Shown: in pieces, positions 48,996 to 61,635 of the stretch
How the letters are laid out: each line of letters begins with the position of its first letter
How positions within the stretch are numbered: position 1 is the first letter of the stretch
From: Galbibacter marinus
GTDB lineage: Bacteria; Bacteroidota; Bacteroidia; Flavobacteriales; Flavobacteriaceae
DNA length: 64,000 nucleotides
Assembly (NCBI RefSeq): GCF_000300875.1
Contig: NZ_AMSG01000006.1
Location: 1 to 64,000, forward strand
Direction: 5' to 3'
The notes under the pieces: model-generated
Seen by the model: only the letters and a program-made list of their open reading frames with translations
Databases searched by the model: none
What the model was told of the DNA's origin: nothing
Program-made: the position numbers and the translations under genes

Positions 48996-51854
48996 TTACT
49001 GTTGTGATTTTTTATTCAACATTTTAAATTCAAAAGGATCTCTATTGAATAATTGTTGTGCTGTATTCAGAATATCACTCGGTGTGAGAGATTTTATATA
49101 TTCCACTTCCTGTTTCACACTTCTCCAAGGATATCCGCTTTTATAATAATCATGAATTTTCCCACTCACTTGTCTTCCACTAATTTTTTCCGCCTTCATA
49201 GATTGTAATTTTTCATTAATAAATTGTTCTAAAAACTCTACATCAACTACATTATTTTTGAAGGATTCAACAAATTCTTTTACTTGCTGAATTATTTGGT
49301 CTGTATCCTTTGGTCTAGAGCTAAATTCTATAAAAATTTCATTAAATAAGCGAGATTTATCAGAATTGGCGTATACTCCAATAAAATAAGTTTGTTGTTC
49401 TGCTTTTGATTTATATCTAATCTTTTGCATCATTAATGTGCTCATCATTTGTTGTAATAGCTTTAGTTTTATTTCCTCTTTCCAGTTGAGATTTTTATTA
49501 TCTAAAGGTGAAAGGTATACCAACCTTCCTTTTATCTGTTGCATGAACTCAATGGATGGTATAGTTAATGAATAAGATGCCGGTAGATCAACACTTGTTG
49601 GTTTATTTATTGTTTTACATTTCTCTTTTTTATTTGTTGGTAAATTCCCCAAGTATTTTCTAGTTAAAGCTAATATTTTATCCTTTTTAAAATCCCCGGT
49701 GAAAACAAAGGTAAAGTCTTCCGCATTACCAAAGACATTCTGATAAATATCAAATGCCTGTTCCATATCTGTTCGATTTACACTTTCTAATGAATTATGG
49801 TTGTTGGGAAAAAGAGTACCATCTCCAATGATATCTCTAATCTTACTTCTAAACGCATCTTCGTTGATCGTTTTCATAACTAATGATGAACTACTTTTAA
49901 TTTTCCAATCTTTAAAAGCTAAACTATTTTTATTGGGAGCGGTAAAATATAAATACATTAATTGTAAAGCTGTTGTTAAATCCTTAAGTTTTACATTTCC
50001 TTTTATGCCTGCCTCATTATAGTTTATATATGGGGATATTCTTAGGTTTAAATCCTTGTCTCTAAAATATTTTTCCAATTCAAATCTATTCATTCCATTT
50101 ACACCTGAATTCCTTATAATCTCAGTTGAATTTAGAGCCGAATAATAATCTTTTTTTGGAAAACAACTAACCCCTTTAGAAGTAAAGCCATGAAAGCTTA
50201 TATTATCTCGCAGTTTATTACTTATTGAGGACAGTGAATCAAAAGGCTTGAGCACTATTCTCACACCATTATCCAGTTGGTACTCTTTAGCTCCAGGAAT
50301 AGAAACAACTTTTTCTTGAATCTTACTGGGCTTTAAATTTCGTATGGTAGATGGAGATAATAATACTTCGGGAATTCTCAGTTCTTTAAATTCAGATACA
50401 GGTGAATTATTAGCATCTTTAATCCATCTCCTGATTTCCTTTTCCGTATATGATAATGCATGATGGTTCGGAGGAGACAATATTATTATATCAATGTCAT
50501 TTGGATTAGTTTTAATATATTGTTTTATAAATTTATTAAATTCCGTTAAAGTAAGTTCCCTTATCAGTTTGGTTAAAATTGCTTTTTTATTTGATGGTAA
50601 TGCCTTTCTGTAAATGAAGTGGTCTCTGATGTTATTTCTCCAATAATGTATTCCTGTAGTATCTTTTTTATTTAAAGATCTGAGTTGTTTCTTTTTGCCT
50701 TCCATAAACTCCCTTTTAGAGAATCCCTTACTTTTTAATTGTTTTAAAAGCTGTATAGATTCTGAAATAACCTCTTTCTCTGAACCGTCTTCTATCCTTA
50801 TTTGCAAAGCTATCCCTAATGAAAAAGGTTTTATAAATGCTGGAAGTACATAAAAAGAAGTAGCATATTGCTGTTGTTGTTTTGTAATAAGCATTTCTCT
50901 TAATATATTCATGAATAACTGTCGTTTTTGATCATTTTTCAGAACGTTCAAGCCATACACCTCTTCCTGTATTTTTTGGCGCATGTATAGACGCATATAT
51001 ACAGCATCGTCTTTTGAATTTTTTTTTAAAAAAGGATGTTCTTCGCTAATAAATTGTGGAAAAGAATTCCTGTATTCTTCATAATTATTAATTGGAGATT
51101 GTAGGTTTTTGTTAGGTTTGGTCTTAGAAAACTTTTCTTTTATTTCATTTTCTATAAGATCCACATCTTTAATATCACCAATAACAACAATAGCCATTAA
51201 ATCAGTTCGGTACCAATCTTTATAAAAACGTTTAAGAGTTTTTTTCTTGAAATGTTCTATGTGTTTTATAAAATCGATTGGCGGAGTAGCTCCTCTTCCG
51301 ATCATCACACTTTCGAAATCACTAATCAAAGAGTTCGCTAGATATCCCCCCCTTTGTGCTTTTTCATTAATAATTACCCCGCGTTCACTATTAATGTATT
51401 CATCTTTAAACTCTAAATTCCATATAATATCTTGACATAACTGAAAAGCAATTTCTCGTTGCTCTTTTGTGCCAACTGATTCAAAAAAATACTGCGTAAA
51501 ATCAAAAGATGCGCTGCCATTGATTTGCCCTATTTTAAAACCTAAATCTTGCGCTTTTTCAATAGTCATATGCTTGCCTGATTTAAAGGCTATGTGTTCC
51601 ATAAAATGAGCAGACTCGTATTCATTTTCTAATGCAGATCCAGCCTTTATGAGTAATCGTACATCGAGTTGAGAGGATCCGTCTTTTATAGGTTTGATGT
51701 AATATTCGAGACCATTTAATAACTTTCCATGCCGTATACTTCTATCCAGAGGTATCGTATCCTGACTTCCTGATGAATGAACCATAAACATTCCCCCCAA
51801 GAAAAAGGTCAATAAAAACGATAAGACTTCTTTTTTTATGAATTTATTTTTCAT
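48996..51854 (-). CDS. M16 zinc metallopeptidase
   Basis: A 952-residue peptidase with two tandem M16 modules. The active module has the inverted zinc site HFMEH (His83, Glu86, His87) and the distal Glu in INSERGVIINEKAQ, about 75 residues on. The second module lacks it, as usual. A signal anchor (VLSFLLTFFLGGMFMV) implies export. Relatives degrade oligopeptides in the periplasm. It is the last gene of a SusC-SusD-M16 operon with 10-14 base gaps, so it probably digests peptides imported by that receptor. Confidence 0.88.
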   Translation of the reverse strand: MKNKFIKKEVLSFLLTFFLGGMFMVHSSGSQDTIPLDRSIRHGKLLNGLEYYIKPIKDGSSQLDVRLLIKAGSALENEYESAHFMEHIAFKSGKHMTIEKAQDLGFKIGQINGSASFDFTQYFFESVGTKEQREIAFQLCQDIIWNLEFKDEYINSERGVIINEKAQRGGYLANSLISDFESVMIGRGATPPIDFIKHIEHFKKKTLKRFYKDWYRTDLMAIVVIGDIKDVDLIENEIKEKFSKTKPNKNLQSPINNYEEYRNSFPQFISEEHPFLKKNSKDDAVYMRLYMRQKIQEEVYGLNVLKNDQKRQLFMNILREMLITKQQQQYATSFYVLPAFIKPFSLGIALQIRIEDGSEKEVISESIQLLKQLKSKGFSKREFMEGKKKQLRSLNKKDTTGIHYWRNNIRDHFIYRKALPSNKKAILTKLIRELTLTEFNKFIKQYIKTNPNDIDIIILSPPNHHALSYTEKEIRRWIKDANNSPVSEFKELRIPEVLLSPSTIRNLKPSKIQEKVVSIPGAKEYQLDNGVRIVLKPFDSLSSISNKLRDNISFHGFTSKGVSCFPKKDYYSALNSTEIIRNSGVNGMNRFELEKYFRDKDLNLRISPYINYNEAGIKGNVKLKDLTTALQLMYLYFTAPNKNSLAFKDWKIKSSSSLVMKTINEDAFRSKIRDIIGDGTLFPNNHNSLESVNRTDMEQAFDIYQNVFGNAEDFTFVFTGDFKKDKILALTRKYLGNLPTNKKEKCKTINKPTSVDLPASYSLTIPSIEFMQQIKGRLVYLSPLDNKNLNWKEEIKLKLLQQMMSTLMMQKIRYKSKAEQQTYFIGVYANSDKSRLFNEIFIEFSSRPKDTDQIIQQVKEFVESFKNNVVDVEFLEQFINEKLQSMKAEKISGRQVSGKIHDYYKSGYPWRSVKQEVEYIKSLTPSDILNTAQQLFNRDPFEFKMLNKKSQQ

Positions 51855-51868
51855 TGTAGTTTGCTAAT

Positions 51869-53263
51869 TTAGTACCCGTTATTTTGTGTCAGGTTAGGAT
51901 TTTTACTTCTTTCTTCTTCAGGTATGGGGTATAAAACATCAGTGTCCTGCCAGGATGTTTTTGTGCCACTTAAAATCTTTGGAGCCATTCCTGTACGTTT
52001 TATATCTAACCACCGATGGCCCCATTCGGTAAATAACTCTCTTTGTCTTTCTATCTGAATGGAGTCCAATAAAGCTTCTCCTGTAATGCCGGAATTTAGA
52101 TTCATAATCAGATCGAGATTTGCTCGCTCCCTTATTTTATCCAGATCTGTAATAGCTCCGGTTAGATTTTCTAGATGAACTTTTGCCTCCGCCCGTATAA
52201 AATATTGTTCTGCCAAGCGCATTACCATAGAATATTCCTTGATACCCTCTGAATCATGAATTCTATATTTAGTTGGATAGTAATAATCTTTGACATCAGT
52301 AGGAAATACACCTAACCAGTATTCAGATCTAATGTCTTTTTTTGAATATAACATCAATTGTTTTTTGGTAATGGCGGTGGGTTGATTAGATTGTGGAGGA
52401 GCACTTGTTAAAATAAAAATTCGAGGTTCATTTGGAATAACGCTTAAGGCCCTACCAGCTGGAGATATTTGCCAAATAGCTTCTTGGCTATTGGCTAAAA
52501 AAACCTGATCTAGGTCGTTTAGTAAAGCATAATTCTCAGTGCTGTTGATTACTTGAGTACTATATGTTTCCGCTTTTTCCCAATCTTCCAGAAATAAATA
52601 TACCCTAGCCATTAGAGCCATTGCTGTATATTTATTAGGTCGTATACGTTCTCCACCCTCATAGGACTCTCCTAAAATAGCAACAGCATTCTCTAAATCA
52701 TCAATTATAGCTTCATATATTTCTGTTTTTTCAGCCCTCGATGCTAAGGCATTTTCTCTGTAATCTGGGGATTGTATTAAAGGTACTTTCCCATATAAAT
52801 TGACAAGGTAGAAATAGACAAAAGCTCGCACAAATTGTACTTCGCCCATTAATTTAGCTTTCATCTCTTCAGATACTCCATTATATTTTCGCAGACCATC
52901 GATTACTGCATTACAGAGGTAAATAATATTATAGGCACTTGACCAAAGAGCTAAATTGTATGAGTTTTCTATTAAGATTTCGCTCTCTTCAAATTCGATC
53001 ATCTCTTCATTTAATGCAGTGGTTTGCAGTTCACCAGCAGATAATCCTCCCAAGAGAGTGACAGAACGGAAATTACCATTAGAAAAATCAGCCTTGAACA
53101 ATTCATTGTATATGCCAATTACAGCATTGTTTGCAGCTTCATCGCTACCGAAAACAGTTTCACTTACAATTTTTTGGTCGGGGACATCTACTTCAACAAA
53201 ATTTTCACAGGATGACTGCATAAAGAAGAAGAAAATGATTATAATATGTCTTGTGTTTTTCAT
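51869..53263 (-). CDS. SusD/RagB family surface lipoprotein
   Basis: A 464-residue lipoprotein (FFFMQSSC, Cys19), built from TPR-like helices as in SusD/RagB (AVIDGLRKYNGVSEEMKAKL, LMARVYLFLEDWEKAE, RQRELFTEWGHRWLDIKRTG near the C-terminus). It binds a nutrient on the cell surface and hands it to SusC. With a peptidase in the same operon, a peptide or protein ligand is more likely than a glycan. Confidence 0.9.
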   Translation of the reverse strand: MKNTRHIIIIFFFFMQSSCENFVEVDVPDQKIVSETVFGSDEAANNAVIGIYNELFKADFSNGNFRSVTLLGGLSAGELQTTALNEEMIEFEESEILIENSYNLALWSSAYNIIYLCNAVIDGLRKYNGVSEEMKAKLMGEVQFVRAFVYFYLVNLYGKVPLIQSPDYRENALASRAEKTEIYEAIIDDLENAVAILGESYEGGERIRPNKYTAMALMARVYLFLEDWEKAETYSTQVINSTENYALLNDLDQVFLANSQEAIWQISPAGRALSVIPNEPRIFILTSAPPQSNQPTAITKKQLMLYSKKDIRSEYWLGVFPTDVKDYYYPTKYRIHDSEGIKEYSMVMRLAEQYFIRAEAKVHLENLTGAITDLDKIRERANLDLIMNLNSGITGEALLDSIQIERQRELFTEWGHRWLDIKRTGMAPKILSGTKTSWQDTDVLYPIPEEERSKNPNLTQNNGY

Positions 53264-53273
53264 GATATAGATA

Positions 53274-56200
53274 TTATAAGGTTACTTTAATACCGCAGGT
53301 AATAGTTCTTAATGGAGGAACCACACCCGATCCTCCCTGTGGGTCTAAGCCTTTATATGAGGTTATGGTGAAAAGGTTTTGTGCATGTACATAAATCTGA
53401 CCTGATTTTACGTTTATTTTTTTCAGAATATGTTTAGGTAAGCGATACGACAGAGAAATATTTTTTAATCTTAGAAAGGAAGCATCTTCTATCCCCATAG
53501 TACTATTGGCCGTATTGTAAAAAGGGTCTATTGCTAAAAATGATTGTGAAACCTTTTGAATGTTTTCATTATCTCCGGGTCTTTCCCAAGCTTCTAAAAA
53601 TTCTACAGGTTTGTTTCCAGAAAAACCAGGCGGAGTTGCTCTAAATATATGACTCCCGTTAAATTGTTTAATATATTCGAATAGGAACTGTAAAGAAAGT
53701 CCCTTATAACGGATATGGTTATTAATACCCCCGTAATATTCCCTTCCCATATTTTTTATAACTACCCTATCATCATTATTATATCGTCCATCCTCATTAG
53801 CATCCACTATTTGATAAAAGCCAGTTTCTTGGTTAATACCATCATATTGATAAAAGAAGGAAATGTTTAAGGGGTGTCCCACTCGGTATTGGCTAGCATA
53901 TGAGGTATCGTCAATATTATCAAACTCCAGCAGTTTATTCTTTGGAATGGTCATATTTATTGAAGTTTGCCATGAGAAATTTTTACTACTTAAATTCATG
54001 GAGTTTAACAATACTTCCCAACCGCTGTTCTGCACCAACGCGGGTAGATTAGCCTGTACTGAGGTAAATCCTGTAATTGCAGGAAGTGGATATCCTACCA
54101 ATTGATTGGAAGAACGGTTTCGATACCAACTGACCTCCATATTGAAATGATCATTAAGAAATCCTAATTGTAATGATGCCTCTATTTTTTTATTAACCTC
54201 CCAGGAATAATCTGGGTTAAATAGTTGGGTCGGATATAATCCTCCAATACCTTCTGTTGCCTCATACGTATCCAAAAAGCCATAGTCTGGTATCTGATCA
54301 CTTCCAGTGGTACCATAACTAGCTCTTAATTTTCCAAAACTCAAGAAAGAAATATTCTCCTCAATTACCTTCTCACCCGAGAAAATCCAAGCACCCCCTA
54401 TAGCCCAAAAATTAGAAAAACGTCGATCAGAGCCAAAGCGGGAAGACCCATCCCTTCTCCCTGTAATATTTAGGAAATATTTCTTGTACCAGTTCAATCC
54501 CATACGACCAAATAAAGCAGCATAGCGATAATGTATGTTGGCATCATTTGTAATTCTAACTTCCTCAGCTGCATTAAGATTGCTCATTAAACTTTTGTCG
54601 GGATAACCATTTGCCGTTATGCTTAAAAAGTTGCTCTTATTATCCTGGAAAGTCCCACCCATTAATGCATCAATATTTATTTTACCATAAGTTTGATTAA
54701 AAATAATTTGGGGTTCTAATATCCAGGATCGTCTTTTAGAATAGTTCTGATTTACGCCGAGTTTTATCCTCTCCCATCTATTAGGATTGTACCGTTCTTT
54801 ATAATATTTTATTCCATCTTCATTATCTAATTTGGAAAAACCCGTACTAATTTTAAATCTCAACCCTTTTATAATACCATATGAAATATTCAAATTCGTT
54901 AATAGATTATCTGTTTTAATATCCTGTGGTTGTTTCAAAACTGCCAGTGGATTATCTACTGTCCAATTTTCCCAGTTTAGACTACCATCGTCCTTATAAA
55001 TAGGAGGTGCATTTGGCGGAACGGAAAGTGCATAGTTGACAAAATTGGCTCCATTAAACACTTTGTTATTATCTACCCCATAGTTAGCAGAGAAGCTTAA
55101 TTGAAATCTGTTATTATCTGATTTATGGCTAAAATTCACATTTGCCGTTAGTTTATTGTAGTCAAAATCTCCAGGGAATACAGAGCCTAGTTTATTATAT
55201 GAGCCTCCAATCCTATAAGTGGTATTCTCATTACCACTAGAAATTGCCATGTTTATATTGTTAGCGAAGGCTGTACCTCCAAACAGAACATCCTGCCAAT
55301 CTGTATATCGATTTTGATCCCATACCATAAGGTCAGGAGCATTTGTTTCTGTAGGAATGACTCCATCATTTTCAAAGGCTTGTTTTCTCATGGAAATGTA
55401 TTGTCGGGTATTTAGTAGCTTCATTTTATTTGAAACTTCGGATATGCCTGAATACATGTTGATCTCTAATGAGCTCTTCCCTTGATTTAATTTCCCCTTT
55501 TTACTAGTAATCAATACTACACCATTGGCTCCCCGAGAACCATAAATCGCAGTAGCATCCGCATCTTTAAGCACTTCTATACTTTCTATATTATTGAGAT
55601 TTAGGGTGCTCAAAGGGTCTAGTCCTGTTATTGTTAAAGTGCCAGGGCTTTGTATTGGTGCAGAGACAATTGGAATACCATCTATAATATATAATGGATA
55701 ATTTCCATTATCATTGCGGCTGTTTCGTAAACTGTTTTGTCCACGTATTCGTATGGTCGGTGCCAAACCAGTAATTCCGCTTCCTTGTTCTACTTCCACT
55801 CCAGCCATTCTCCCTTCTAAACTCTGGAGCGGACTTACAATAGGTTGTAACTCTATTTCTTCTGAAGTTACTTTTGCGATACTTCCAGTTCGCTCTCTTT
55901 CCTTAACGGTGTAATACCCTGCATTAACAGTGACGGCTTCCAAGTTTGTTACATCCTCTTCGAGTGCCAATGAAAGTTCCTTTGAAGTTCCAACTGTCAC
56001 TTCAAGAGGCTTAAATCCGATATAGCTTAATATTAAAACATCGGTAGGGGCGGCATCCACGTAAAAGTAACCCTCTTTATCTGTGAAAGTGCCATAAGAA
56101 GTCCCTTTGATTTCTACGTTCACTCCGGGAATCGGAATGCCGTTGGAATCCTTGACCTGCCCCTTAACCCGATGTTGGTAATCAGCTAATTCTAAAAAAT

Positions 56201-56303
56201 TGATAGTTTTATTATTTCCGAATAGGGAATAGGTCCCAATAGAGAAGATGAGAAGGAGTACCAATAGTATACACCTATCTCTAATGATATGTTTATTTTG
56301 CAT
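53274..56303 (-). CDS. SusC/RagA TonB-dependent receptor
   Basis: A 1009-residue outer-membrane transporter: an N-terminal carboxypeptidase-regulatory-like domain (VKGQVKDSNGIPIPGVNVEI), a plug domain (VLKDADATAIYGSRGANGVV), and a C-terminal 22-strand barrel ending ITCGIKVTL. It has no N-terminal signalling (STN) domain, so it is probably not controlled by an anti-sigma factor in cis. First gene of the operon. Confidence 0.92.
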   Translation of the reverse strand: MQNKHIIRDRCILLVLLLIFSIGTYSLFGNNKTINFLELADYQHRVKGQVKDSNGIPIPGVNVEIKGTSYGTFTDKEGYFYVDAAPTDVLILSYIGFKPLEVTVGTSKELSLALEEDVTNLEAVTVNAGYYTVKERERTGSIAKVTSEEIELQPIVSPLQSLEGRMAGVEVEQGSGITGLAPTIRIRGQNSLRNSRNDNGNYPLYIIDGIPIVSAPIQSPGTLTITGLDPLSTLNLNNIESIEVLKDADATAIYGSRGANGVVLITSKKGKLNQGKSSLEINMYSGISEVSNKMKLLNTRQYISMRKQAFENDGVIPTETNAPDLMVWDQNRYTDWQDVLFGGTAFANNINMAISSGNENTTYRIGGSYNKLGSVFPGDFDYNKLTANVNFSHKSDNNRFQLSFSANYGVDNNKVFNGANFVNYALSVPPNAPPIYKDDGSLNWENWTVDNPLAVLKQPQDIKTDNLLTNLNISYGIIKGLRFKISTGFSKLDNEDGIKYYKERYNPNRWERIKLGVNQNYSKRRSWILEPQIIFNQTYGKINIDALMGGTFQDNKSNFLSITANGYPDKSLMSNLNAAEEVRITNDANIHYRYAALFGRMGLNWYKKYFLNITGRRDGSSRFGSDRRFSNFWAIGGAWIFSGEKVIEENISFLSFGKLRASYGTTGSDQIPDYGFLDTYEATEGIGGLYPTQLFNPDYSWEVNKKIEASLQLGFLNDHFNMEVSWYRNRSSNQLVGYPLPAITGFTSVQANLPALVQNSGWEVLLNSMNLSSKNFSWQTSINMTIPKNKLLEFDNIDDTSYASQYRVGHPLNISFFYQYDGINQETGFYQIVDANEDGRYNNDDRVVIKNMGREYYGGINNHIRYKGLSLQFLFEYIKQFNGSHIFRATPPGFSGNKPVEFLEAWERPGDNENIQKVSQSFLAIDPFYNTANSTMGIEDASFLRLKNISLSYRLPKHILKKINVKSGQIYVHAQNLFTITSYKGLDPQGGSGVVPPLRTITCGIKVTL

Positions 56304-56331
56304 AATGTTGTTCTAATAGATTGTTTTTAGT

Positions 56332-56361
56332 TAATTATAAAGATTCCGATCACCTGTCAAA
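56332..56361 (-). promoter_or_regulatory. candidate SusC operon promoter
   Basis: On the minus strand: TTTG (56361-56358), then 18 bases, then TATAATTA (56339-56332). Fits the -33 box well but only loosely the TAnnTTTG element. It lies ~30 bases before the SusC start. Between here and 57016 I find no convincing gene; a 150-codon minus frame looks spurious. Confidence 0.3.
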
Positions 56362-57015
56362 TGCACTGAGAATCTTTTCCTTGTTAGATTAAATTAGTAT
56401 GATGTCTGTTGTATTCTATCTCGTATATGTCTTTGTTTTTAAATGTTTTGTAATAGGGTATTCGTGATCTAAATCCATAATCCTGAACTATAATTTAAGT
56501 GAGTTTTAAACACACTATCATTAACTCAATCATGAATTGTCACTAACAGAGTAGTGGTATACTTTTCGATTAAAAAAAGTATACGTACATATCAGTCTAA
56601 ATTCCATTCTTCCTTGGCCACTGCTACAATAATGGTATCTGGGCTAAATAGGATTTTTTCTTTTCTTCCGAAATAACCTATATGAAGGTGATACCTGTAT
56701 CTTCTTTAAATAGTGAGATATGATTTCACAATTCAAATAAGTTGATAGATCCTTTGAACGTGATATTTCTATAAAAACCGACCCTATGCTGCAAGACCTT
56801 AATAAAACGACTTGCAAAAATGTTAAATACGGGTTACATTCGTAATCAATGCGACTTGACGAAAAATGTGACCTTTTAATTTCCTGAGGGAAACACGTTT
56901 GGTTACCCAAACATAAGATCGGTACTACCCAACAGATACTGTCGGGAAGATTTTTTTTGTTTAAGTGTGTATAATAGTTTTTTGAAATAGATACGAGAGG
57001 TTGTGACCAATTGGA

Positions 57016-57053
57016 ATCACCAATAGTGATGTCCGCGGCCAGTGGGCTGCGGA
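57016..57053. other. pair of adjacent hairpins
   Basis: ATCAC-caata-GTGAT (57016-57030) and TCCGC-g-GCC-agtg-GGC-t-GCGGA (57032-57053) follow each other directly. They lie downstream, on the minus strand, of the candidate RNA at 57151-57262, inside a low-quality ORF that I reject. They may belong to a larger structured transcript. Confidence 0.35.
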
Positions 57054-57150
57054 TAAAAGGTTTTGGCGGTATGTTAAACTTCGTTTTCATAATCATGTTG
57101 GTTATGTAAACGATGTGTACTCGATAAGCAAAGAAAGTTCCTCAATTGGT

Positions 57151-57262
57151 AAAAAACCAATAAAGCGAGCCTCAATGCTTTGAATGTGGTACCGTCAAGA
57201 ACCGCCACAACCGAAGTTGTGGTTCCCCAAAGACTTACATGAGACCCGCCTATTGGTTTATA
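57151..57262 (-). ncRNA. candidate ~110-nt structured RNA with U-tail
   Basis: The minus-strand transcript folds as a long rod. The 9-bp outer stem pairs 57259-57251 with 57162-57154, then a 10-bp stem pairs 57250-57241 with 57173-57164. In the latter, three pairs are G.U on the minus strand but would be A/C mismatches on the plus strand, which marks the transcribed strand. Inner helices follow (AUG/CAU, CUUUG/CAAAG), and the tip is GAACCACAAC-UUCG-GUUGU-ggc-GGUUC with a cUUCGg tetraloop. The 3' end is GGUUUUUU, as in an intrinsic terminator. TATCTTCG (57273-57266) may be its promoter box. No known RNA family recognised. Confidence 0.5.
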
Positions 57263-57455
57263 TCGCGAAGATACAAAATCCAATAGAAAGCGAGCTCACG
57301 GTCTGCTCATAGGGAAAATTGACGGTTTTCATTTATGAGTGACATCGTATTAAGATTGAGTTAAAAACTCTTTCTTCTAATCGTCGCTATTGTTACTGAT
57401 ACAAATATAATGCATAAATCTATAAAAAACAAGAATTAAGGTTTTTATATAAATA

Positions 57456-59565: not shown

Positions 59566-60528
59566 TTATTTAATAAACAAATGGTTTACAAATAATGTAT
59601 GGGGAGCACTTACCAGATTGATGTCAAATTTTAATGAGGATTCCACCCTGGAACTGGCACTGTGTATACGAAATGAAATTTGCCAGCCTTCATCAAAGGT
59701 AGCCAGCAATGTATTATCATAGCCATTTTTAAAGGAGAGCTCTATAATGCGGGAGGGGAGGTTTAACTTCTGAACCTTTGCCTTAGGTTTGTGTTTTCCG
59801 AAAGATTTATTTAAAGAACCCATTAAGTTAAAAGCCTGAATCTCTACCTTTTTCTTTCCTTTTATGACCTTATAGAAATCTTTGTTTCCAACTAAATAGA
59901 GAATCAGGTTTTGAGCAAAGTTATCAGGGGCTTGTTTTTCTAAAGCAAGCATTTCTTTTTTAAAAGCTTCTAAAATGGGTTTGTATACCTCTTGATATTT
60001 ATCCTGTATTACTTCATCCCATTTGGTGGTGTTATCATGCTTTCTAATTTCACTTAACCGGTTAAAGACAACATTGACTTGATCAAAGTATGTAGTAGAA
60101 CAAGGGAGACCAACCCAGCTTTTACCGAAATCTAATTTTCCGGATAGTCGAGAGTGTTTTAATGCCCTATGATTGTTCTTTGCAGAAATTCCAATCTCCC
60201 ATTTCTGCTTTGCTCTTATAATAATGACATCCCTGACATCACCCTTTTGTCCCTGGCTATCTGTAGCGATTTCTAATTGCAATATATCTTCATTGTCAAT
60301 TCCATAGGAGAGTCTCGGCTCCAAATCAATAAGAAAATTCACGGCAAAACTGGAACTTAAAACATACGCATCCTTTTCCTCTGAAGGAAAAGCATCAAAA
60401 CATTCCCTCGCGGTTAAATAGGCATGATTCTCAATAATATTTACAGTTGTAATATCTTTCAGTCTTGAATGAAATTCATGCAATAAGGAATACTCAAAAG
60501 CCTTACCGGTTTTTGTTTGCTTAGCCAT
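59566..60528 (-). CDS. HaeIII-family restriction endonuclease
   Basis: A 320-residue type II endonuclease. The N-terminus KTGKAFEYSLLHEFHSRL matches the HaeIII family (PF09556), and GDVRDVIIIRAKQKWEIGISAKNNHRA contains the catalytic-type pattern (D...ExSxK). It directly follows a methyltransferase that is close to M.HaeIII, so I infer cutting at GGCC. The gap to the methyltransferase is 15 bases, so the two are co-transcribed. Confidence 0.85.
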   Translation of the reverse strand: MAKQTKTGKAFEYSLLHEFHSRLKDITTVNIIENHAYLTARECFDAFPSEEKDAYVLSSSFAVNFLIDLEPRLSYGIDNEDILQLEIATDSQGQKGDVRDVIIIRAKQKWEIGISAKNNHRALKHSRLSGKLDFGKSWVGLPCSTTYFDQVNVVFNRLSEIRKHDNTTKWDEVIQDKYQEVYKPILEAFKKEMLALEKQAPDNFAQNLILYLVGNKDFYKVIKGKKKVEIQAFNLMGSLNKSFGKHKPKAKVQKLNLPSRIIELSFKNGYDNTLLATFDEGWQISFRIHSASSRVESSLKFDINLVSAPHTLFVNHLFIK

Positions 60529-60543
60529 GGGAATAGATATAGA

Positions 60544-61635
60544 TTAGGAATTCACTAATTCCAGCATTTTCTCCTTGATATAATTGCCATTAATAGGCGT
60601 GGATGAAGTGTCTGCTTTATTTGTTTTAATTTGTTTTTTAGTTTTTAATTGATTTAAGTCCTTTTTGATTTGCGATGCAATAACATGAGCAAGATCAACA
60701 GGAACTGCATTTCCTATCATTTTATAACCAGCTGCAACCGCTTTATAATGGAAAATGAAATCATCTGGGAAAGTTTGTATACGGGCACATTCCCTAACGC
60801 TTAATCTTCTATAAAGATGTTCTTTACCCGGAGCAAAAATCCTTACATCTGGTCCGGTAAGAACCATTTTTGGCGCCTGAGGATGGATAGGAGCATGGCG
60901 TCCGCCAGCTTGTATGGTAAATGAAGTTTCATCCCAACTGCGCACCCGGTTTCGTGACATATACATAGAAGAAAAGCCTCCGATCAGGTATTCATGATTT
61001 GGAACAGAACATTGATCACCATTAGTGTAGTTTCCCTGTAAAGCAGGGATTGCTGTTTCTTTTAAATCCGAAATTTTATTTTCAAGGGTGATTTTTTTCT
61101 TAGATGTGGTAGGTTCCGGAAATTTAAACTTAATACCTAAGTCTTTTCTATACCCTACAAAAAACACTCTCTTTCTGTCTTGTGGAACGCCATAATCCGA
61201 AGCGTTTAGCATCGTAAATGACAAATTATAGCCACATTCATTGAATAATGCTTTAATATTCTCCAATGCTTTGTGGTTGCGCTCTAATAGCATTCCAGAT
61301 ACATTCTCAGCCAGAAAGAATTTAGGTTGTTTATCAGCTAATATTCGAATAAAATCAAAAAATAGTTGTCCTCTTTTGTCCTGAATTCCTCTCAGTGATC
61401 CAGCTTCACTCCAACTTTGACATGGAGGTCCACCGATGATACCATCACATTGTGGAACTTCCTCAGAAAGAATATCAACAATACTACGTTTATCTAAAAA
61501 GGTATCTAAATGATTTTCTTCGTAAGTTTTCCAAATATCTTTATCGTATTCATTTGCCCATACCACATTGAAACCAGCTTTTGAAAAGCCTAAATCAAGA
61601 CCTCCAGCACCTGAAAAGAAAGAAACTAAGTTCAT
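60544..61635 (-). CDS. C5 cytosine methyltransferase, M.HaeIII type
   Basis: A 363-residue enzyme with all conserved blocks: [13 protein letters not shown] (AdoMet), GGPPCQSWS with catalytic Cys72, LAENVSGM, and [19 protein letters not shown] then [14 protein letters not shown]. The region between them, including [14 protein letters not shown] and HPQAPKMVL, is near-identical in pattern to M.HaeIII, so GGCC is the expected target with the inner C methylated. The paired endonuclease is downstream. A short hairpin lies 47 bases upstream. Confidence 0.92.

Follow-up and report, generated by a model that had tools for sequence, protein, structure and literature searches.

A candidate two-state leader RNA ahead of a SusC/SusD operon in Galbibacter marinus, with architecture in common with a flavobacterial RNA family

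The locus and the element

The window analyzed here is a 64,000-nt stretch of the Galbibacter marinus genome (family Flavobacteriaceae; assembly GCF_000300875.1, contig NZ_AMSG01000006.1, positions 1 to 64,000). On its minus strand, between a divergent XRE-type helix-turn-helix (HTH) gene and a SusC/SusD operon, lies an element that an earlier note, made from the sequence alone, had described as a structured RNA of ~110 nt (Table 1). We propose, with a probability of roughly 0.55, that this element acts in cis as a two-state leader RNA, or transcription attenuator, for the SusC/SusD operon. It seems to belong, as a divergent member, to a family of leader RNAs that is absent from Rfam and common in flavobacteria and that we call class A. 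Structure and context are established for class A, and in the window copy both have support that falls short of proof; we infer the transcription, termination, switching, and regulator of the window element.

The 3' part of the element folds into a rod (57151-57262, minus strand) of -41.3 kcal/mol (z -5.23) that none of 200 dinucleotide shuffles equaled in stability, and the z score was -3.8 when flanks were included. This bears out the structured minus-strand RNA of the earlier note, together with its 19-bp base stem with G-U pairs (which we find to be ~19 to 20 bp, interrupted, and with several such pairs), the inner cUUCGg hairpin, and the UUUUUU run at 57151-57156. The ~110 nt did not hold as a full length, as the element continues upstream (in the minus-strand sense) for another ~140 nt; the full element is ~245 nt (approximately 57396-57150), itself a predicted transcript, of which the rod is only the 3' part. 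No match at the Rfam 15 gathering score was found for the window and region, and the earlier note had likewise matched the RNA to no known family.

The minus strand of the element carries three arms in the order A-B-A', with B able to pair with either the upstream A or the downstream A'. Arm A (57310-57280) nearly repeats the 3' arm of the rod and competes for its 5' arm, which makes the rod and the A:B pairing mutually exclusive alternatives. None of 120 shuffles had a three-arm property as good. A further helix, P2, pairs CCGUCAA (57325-57319) with UUGACGG (57198-57192), and the hairpins of the element lie inside it. A possible pseudoknot was not significant in the window element on its own. 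A promoter-like TATCTTCG at 57266-57273 was set aside, as it sits in the A:B loop; the counterpart of the class A motif lies at 57402-57409.

Table 1. Features of the leader RNA element and its surroundings (window coordinates).
Feature	Position	Strand	Basis
Whole leader RNA element	57150-57396	-	Architecture common with class A RNAs; 5' end estimated from promoter motif
Putative promoter -7 element, TATATTTG	57402-57409	-	TAnnTTTG at fixed distance in class A loci
Possible pseudoknot strands, CUCAUA (57339-57334) and UAUGAG (57311-57306)	57306-57339	-	Equivalent helix covaries in class A
Conserved GAAAA, P2 5' strand (CCGUCAA), UUUU	57315-57330	-	Sole 64-kb match of GAAA-P2-P2'-URCC descriptor; 0/2000 shuffles
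Arm A, alternative partner of arm B	57280-57310	-	Three-arm statistic
Arm B, common to both folds, 5' arm of rod	57237-57256	-	Fold and three-arm statistic
Extra CCACAAC-UUCG-GUUGUGG hairpin, not in class A	57205-57222	-	Fold; class A alignment
P2 3' strand (UUGACGG), then conserved UACC	57188-57198	-	Descriptor match; sequence
Arm A', 3' arm of rod, putative terminator strand	57157-57178	-	Fold; three-arm statistic
Six-U run after arm A'	57151-57156	-	Sequence
Divergent XRE-type HTH gene, 194 aa	57456-58040	+	Pfam HTH_3, E 1e-10; same-place divergent short gene at 30/30 class A loci
Leader region, RNA to SusC	56304-57100	-	84% identity to paralogous locus of same genome
SusC-like TonB-linked receptor gene	53274-56303	-	Open reading frame list; SusC clade
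SusD gene, after SusC	51869-53263	-	Pfam
Insulinase-like peptidase gene, after SusD	48996-51854	-	Assignment by eye

A family of structured RNAs upstream of related operons

The N terminus of the SusC defines a clade found in all seven genomes of the genus that were examined, and thirteen further loci of this clade were taken for comparison. At almost all of them a divergent, mostly HTH-like gene lies upstream, followed by a long intergenic region before SusC that is folded at nearly all loci; the HTH genes are not the same from locus to locus. Nine of these intergenic regions have in common a conserved core of ~150 nt with visible covariation, and this core is the class A RNA. Its covariance model found matches in 71 of 400 genomes of the family (~18%) and 59 of 237 genera, often with several copies in each, and the six class A loci searched against Rfam gave no match.

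The class A structure is well supported by covariation: across 37 sequences, 96.3% of positions predicted to pair do so and there are 169 double-change cells, a result that none of 500 shuffles reached. The pseudoknot (UCUCG:CGAGA) is likewise supported. Fixed U-G pairs and far lower scores on the reverse strand (170.6 versus 23.3 bits at locus L071) indicate that the RNA and the operon share a strand. Of 30 loci, 28 have a TAnnTTTG promoter motif 39 to 44 nt ahead of the model start, and 29 have one within 120 nt (shuffle mean, 3.4). At all 30 loci a divergent open reading frame (ORF) of 73 to 175 aa begins 21 to 154 nt before the model, and Cro/C1-type HTH families were the commonest matches among the 16 of these ORFs that were scanned. 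The downstream genes, assigned by eye except for dCas12f and its sigma factor, are mostly SusC-like, with FecI/FecR at one locus and a sigma factor plus dCas12f at three.

Class A has the same three-arm plan as the window element. Its middle arm B (GGGCGUGGGCUCUCUUAU) pairs with an upstream A or with a downstream A' that leads into a U-rich stretch, and B and A' start 47 to 54 nt apart. Tested on 54 sequences, both helices are maintained: B:A' is 97.9% paired with 17 double-change cells and A:B is 93.4% paired with 33, neither result being reached in 500 shuffles, and the arms can be seen to change together in, for example, L100 and L132. Two conserved helices that share an arm, together with a U-rich stretch, are the hallmark of a terminator that competes with another hairpin. 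The mutually exclusive terminator and antiterminator helices that characterize attenuators are thus seen in class A by covariation and in the window by the three-arm statistic. Of the functions suggested in the earlier note, that of a regulatory RNA is supported by the context, and the class A relatives in the same place show strong covariation together with an upstream promoter motif at a fixed distance.

The same features could be read as those of a stand-alone small RNA, invariably terminated at B:A' and acting in trans on other transcripts, with A:B only a folding intermediate and SusC transcribed from its own promoter. A compact RNA bounded by a promoter motif and a U-rich 3' end, several hundred nucleotides between the RNA and SusC, and several copies per genome with differing stems would all suit such an RNA. 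However, class A always has the orientation of the operon that follows it, those operons are of few types, and where that operon is sigma-dCas12f or FecI/R the gene begins ~100 nt past the RNA, as expected of a leader. We regard a stand-alone RNA as unlikely.

Does the window element belong with class A?

The window copy has an architecture in common with class A and no significant sequence likeness to it, and several observations weigh against its interpretation as a class A-type attenuator. The copy does not rise above background with the class A covariance models (5.6 bits with the first model; rank 20 in 96 kb with the second). No significant DNA homologue covering the element was found in about 500 genomes, plasmids, or phages, and it therefore has no covariation of its own; the compensatory changes to which the earlier note had looked for support were found in the class A relatives and not for this copy. 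A terminator scanner reported no terminator at the element, which we attribute to the long loop, and the ~900 nt between the U run and the SusC start leave room for another promoter. Lastly, the descriptor of the conserved core was composed with the site already known, and less weight attaches for that reason to its result of a single match in 64 kb (both strands), at the window element, and of none in 2,000 shuffles of the intergenic region.

That descriptor reflects the likeness between GAAAA-CCGUCAA-UUUU...UUGACGG-UACC in the window and GAAAA-P2-UUUU...P2'-URCC in class A. Its background is two chance matches in ~262 kb, and at relaxed spacing it recovers 46 of the 54 class A sequences. A class A subclass (L128 and L133) has another P2 sequence, which indicates that P2 is free to vary. 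The class A model aligns the window (57339-57171, minus strand) in the expected register. The window further shares with class A the three arms and the U run, as well as the setting of a divergent HTH gene and a TonB-receptor operon with TAnnTTTG upstream. It departs from class A in the distance from B to A', 72 nt by count versus 47 to 54 nt, with an extra UUCG hairpin present.

The lack of homologues and the nonsignificant covariance score would also be expected if the window copy had no relationship to class A, or had decayed to a relic, and its fold had no present function. We consider this improbable: the position, the divergent XRE gene, the core motif, the three arms, and the intact U run all agree with class A, and the three-arm plan recurs at three other divergent loci of the genus (L026, L035, and L036; 1 of 120 shuffles as good for each), of which L026 and L035, but not L036, also match the descriptor at the same place. 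The XRE protein, used as a search bait, returned no close relatives. One same-order match was rejected as a homologue, as it covers only a flank within a tandem repeat: 36 nt of the window (57262-57297) are 86% identical to a ~240-bp tandem repeat (L002 1300-1800, G064), possibly by chance.

Class A RNAs and dCas12f-sigmaE

The three class A loci that precede a sigma factor gene carry next to it a gene for a 365-aa protein that matches nuclease-deactivated Cas12f (PDB 9n9c, E 4e-214). Among the 400 genomes, class A occurs in 17 of 18 with dCas12f versus 54 of 382 without (p 5e-13), and a class A RNA lies just upstream in 49 of 80 dCas12f loci of named genomes. Within the genus, Galbibacter orientalis DSM 19592 has dCas12f in its record; neither dCas12f nor the guide scaffold was found in the genome of the window.

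The apparent guide RNA of dCas12f is encoded 3' of the gene, with a scaffold of the pattern GAGGGTGCTTGTA.ACCC ... CATATACAAC followed by the guide, which in most loci ends in GCGTGGGCTCTCTTAT or a close variant. This sequence is that of arm B, preceded by G. At least 9 exact bases are shared with the RNA gene of the same operon by 24 of 39 guides, 23 of them at arm B (shuffles reached at most 7), and some guides are several bases off from the class A copies examined. On these sequence matches, the DNA of arm B is probably the target of dCas12f-sigmaE in the relatives. The class A RNA itself was ruled out as the guide, from which it differs in both scaffold and location, and a guide within class A aimed at its own operon gave no clear downstream DNA match (the longest was 14 nt and T-rich). 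Downstream of dCas12f, L124, L129, and L195 have tandem arrays of two or three guide-RNA units whose guides differ, a resemblance to arm B being seen in only some of them.

The guide matches raise the alternative that the element functions mainly as DNA, with the RNA fold secondary and arm B now or formerly the site to which an RNA-guided sigma factor is directed, as might be suggested by the presence of class A in nearly all dCas12f genomes. We rate this as quite improbable, since the covariation, in which U-G pairs are fixed on a single strand, indicates that RNA folding is under selection; moreover, 54 of the 71 class A genomes, including most copies outside the sigmaE-dCas12f loci, are without detectable dCas12f, as is the genome of the window.

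Proposed mechanism

Under the attenuator reading, a transcript would start from the minus-strand promoter at 57402-57409, which is probably controlled by the product of the adjoining XRE gene. Arm B would pair first with the already made arm A, leaving no terminator, and as A' emerged B could switch to it, forming a long hairpin that with the six U would act as an intrinsic terminator. Termination there, ahead of SusC, would leave the ~245-nt RNA, and the balance between A:B and B:A', set by some factor, would decide read-through into SusC. Transcription directed by dCas12f-sigmaE reportedly starts ~46 nt from the target motif. In relatives with this system, a sigmaE-dependent start would then fall just before A', which begins 47 to 54 nt after the target, and would yield a transcript without B; if that start distance applies, such a transcript would leave out the terminator's 5' half and escape attenuation.

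More broadly, and tentatively, at somewhat short of even odds, we suggest that TonB-receptor operons in Flavobacteriaceae are gated by a new family of two-state leaders, each paired with an HTH regulator of its own, that the arm that switches also serves as the DNA site targeted by dCas12f-sigmaE, and that in the lineage represented by the window this target has decayed and the switch remains. How flavobacteria choose which SusC/SusD operons to express is largely open, and the class A RNA provides a direct handle on it, while the match between arm B and the guides links a leader RNA, a repressor, and RNA-guided transcription at one site. A metabolite riboswitch is highly improbable: class A does combine conserved unpaired nucleotides and a pseudoknot with a terminator, but it precedes unlike operons, in several copies per genome with different stems, and with no common metabolic gene.

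These RNAs resemble known attenuator leaders in their mutually exclusive hairpins, U run, and place before an operon. They differ in that neither a leader peptide nor a T-box nor any known ligand domain was recognized, in that each copy stands beside its own HTH-type gene, and in that the common arm is the apparent guide target in relatives. Structured 5' elements without an Rfam match, as here, and the Flavo-1 motif have been described in Flavobacteriaceae (PMC9723704); no Flavo-1 match was found in the window. A literature search, with preprints outside its scope, found no paper on the class A RNA or on dCas12f-sigmaE.

Neighboring genes and other conserved features

The earlier note had placed the element next to an XRE regulator and a defense cluster. 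The regulator does appear significant, because a divergent, mostly HTH-type gene accompanies the relatives. The restriction-modification cluster beyond it (a type II pair of a HaeIII-type endonuclease and a C5 methyltransferase, 59566-61635, minus strand) looks like variable cargo, since the genes past the HTH gene differ between loci, others carrying mobilization genes or different genes. The element keeps its place before SusC while those genes vary, which speaks against the RNA of a mobile unit that had also been suggested. An antitoxin RNA found no support either, with no tandem repeats in the intergenic region and no type III toxin family among the neighbors scanned with Pfam.

A paralogous locus in the same genome (L026, contig C11) is 84% identical to window 56304-57100 over the 800 bp upstream of SusC. 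The similarity ends near 57100, before reaching the RNA, in whose place L026 has a different strongly folded region (z -6.6), again with an adjoining divergent gene. Between the RNA and SusC, a possibly coding ORF of ~150 aa stays in frame in both paralogues (window 56647-57090, minus strand; L026 8295-8741, plus strand). Its substitutions by codon position (32/33/46 in the first 300 nt) are only mildly enriched at third positions, and the homologue in G003 has stops.

A second conserved stretch, around CATGGTATCCGGCCATGTGACGA and with flanking inverted repeats, lies between the class A position and SusC at L036, L067, L070, L071, L072, L075, and L076, and may be another RNA element of the SusC leaders. 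Beside the divergent promoter, palindromes differ by locus (L026, L035, L068, L070, L071, and L074; AACAGCAAATTATTTGCTGTT in L026, for example), as would fit a separate operator for each HTH protein.
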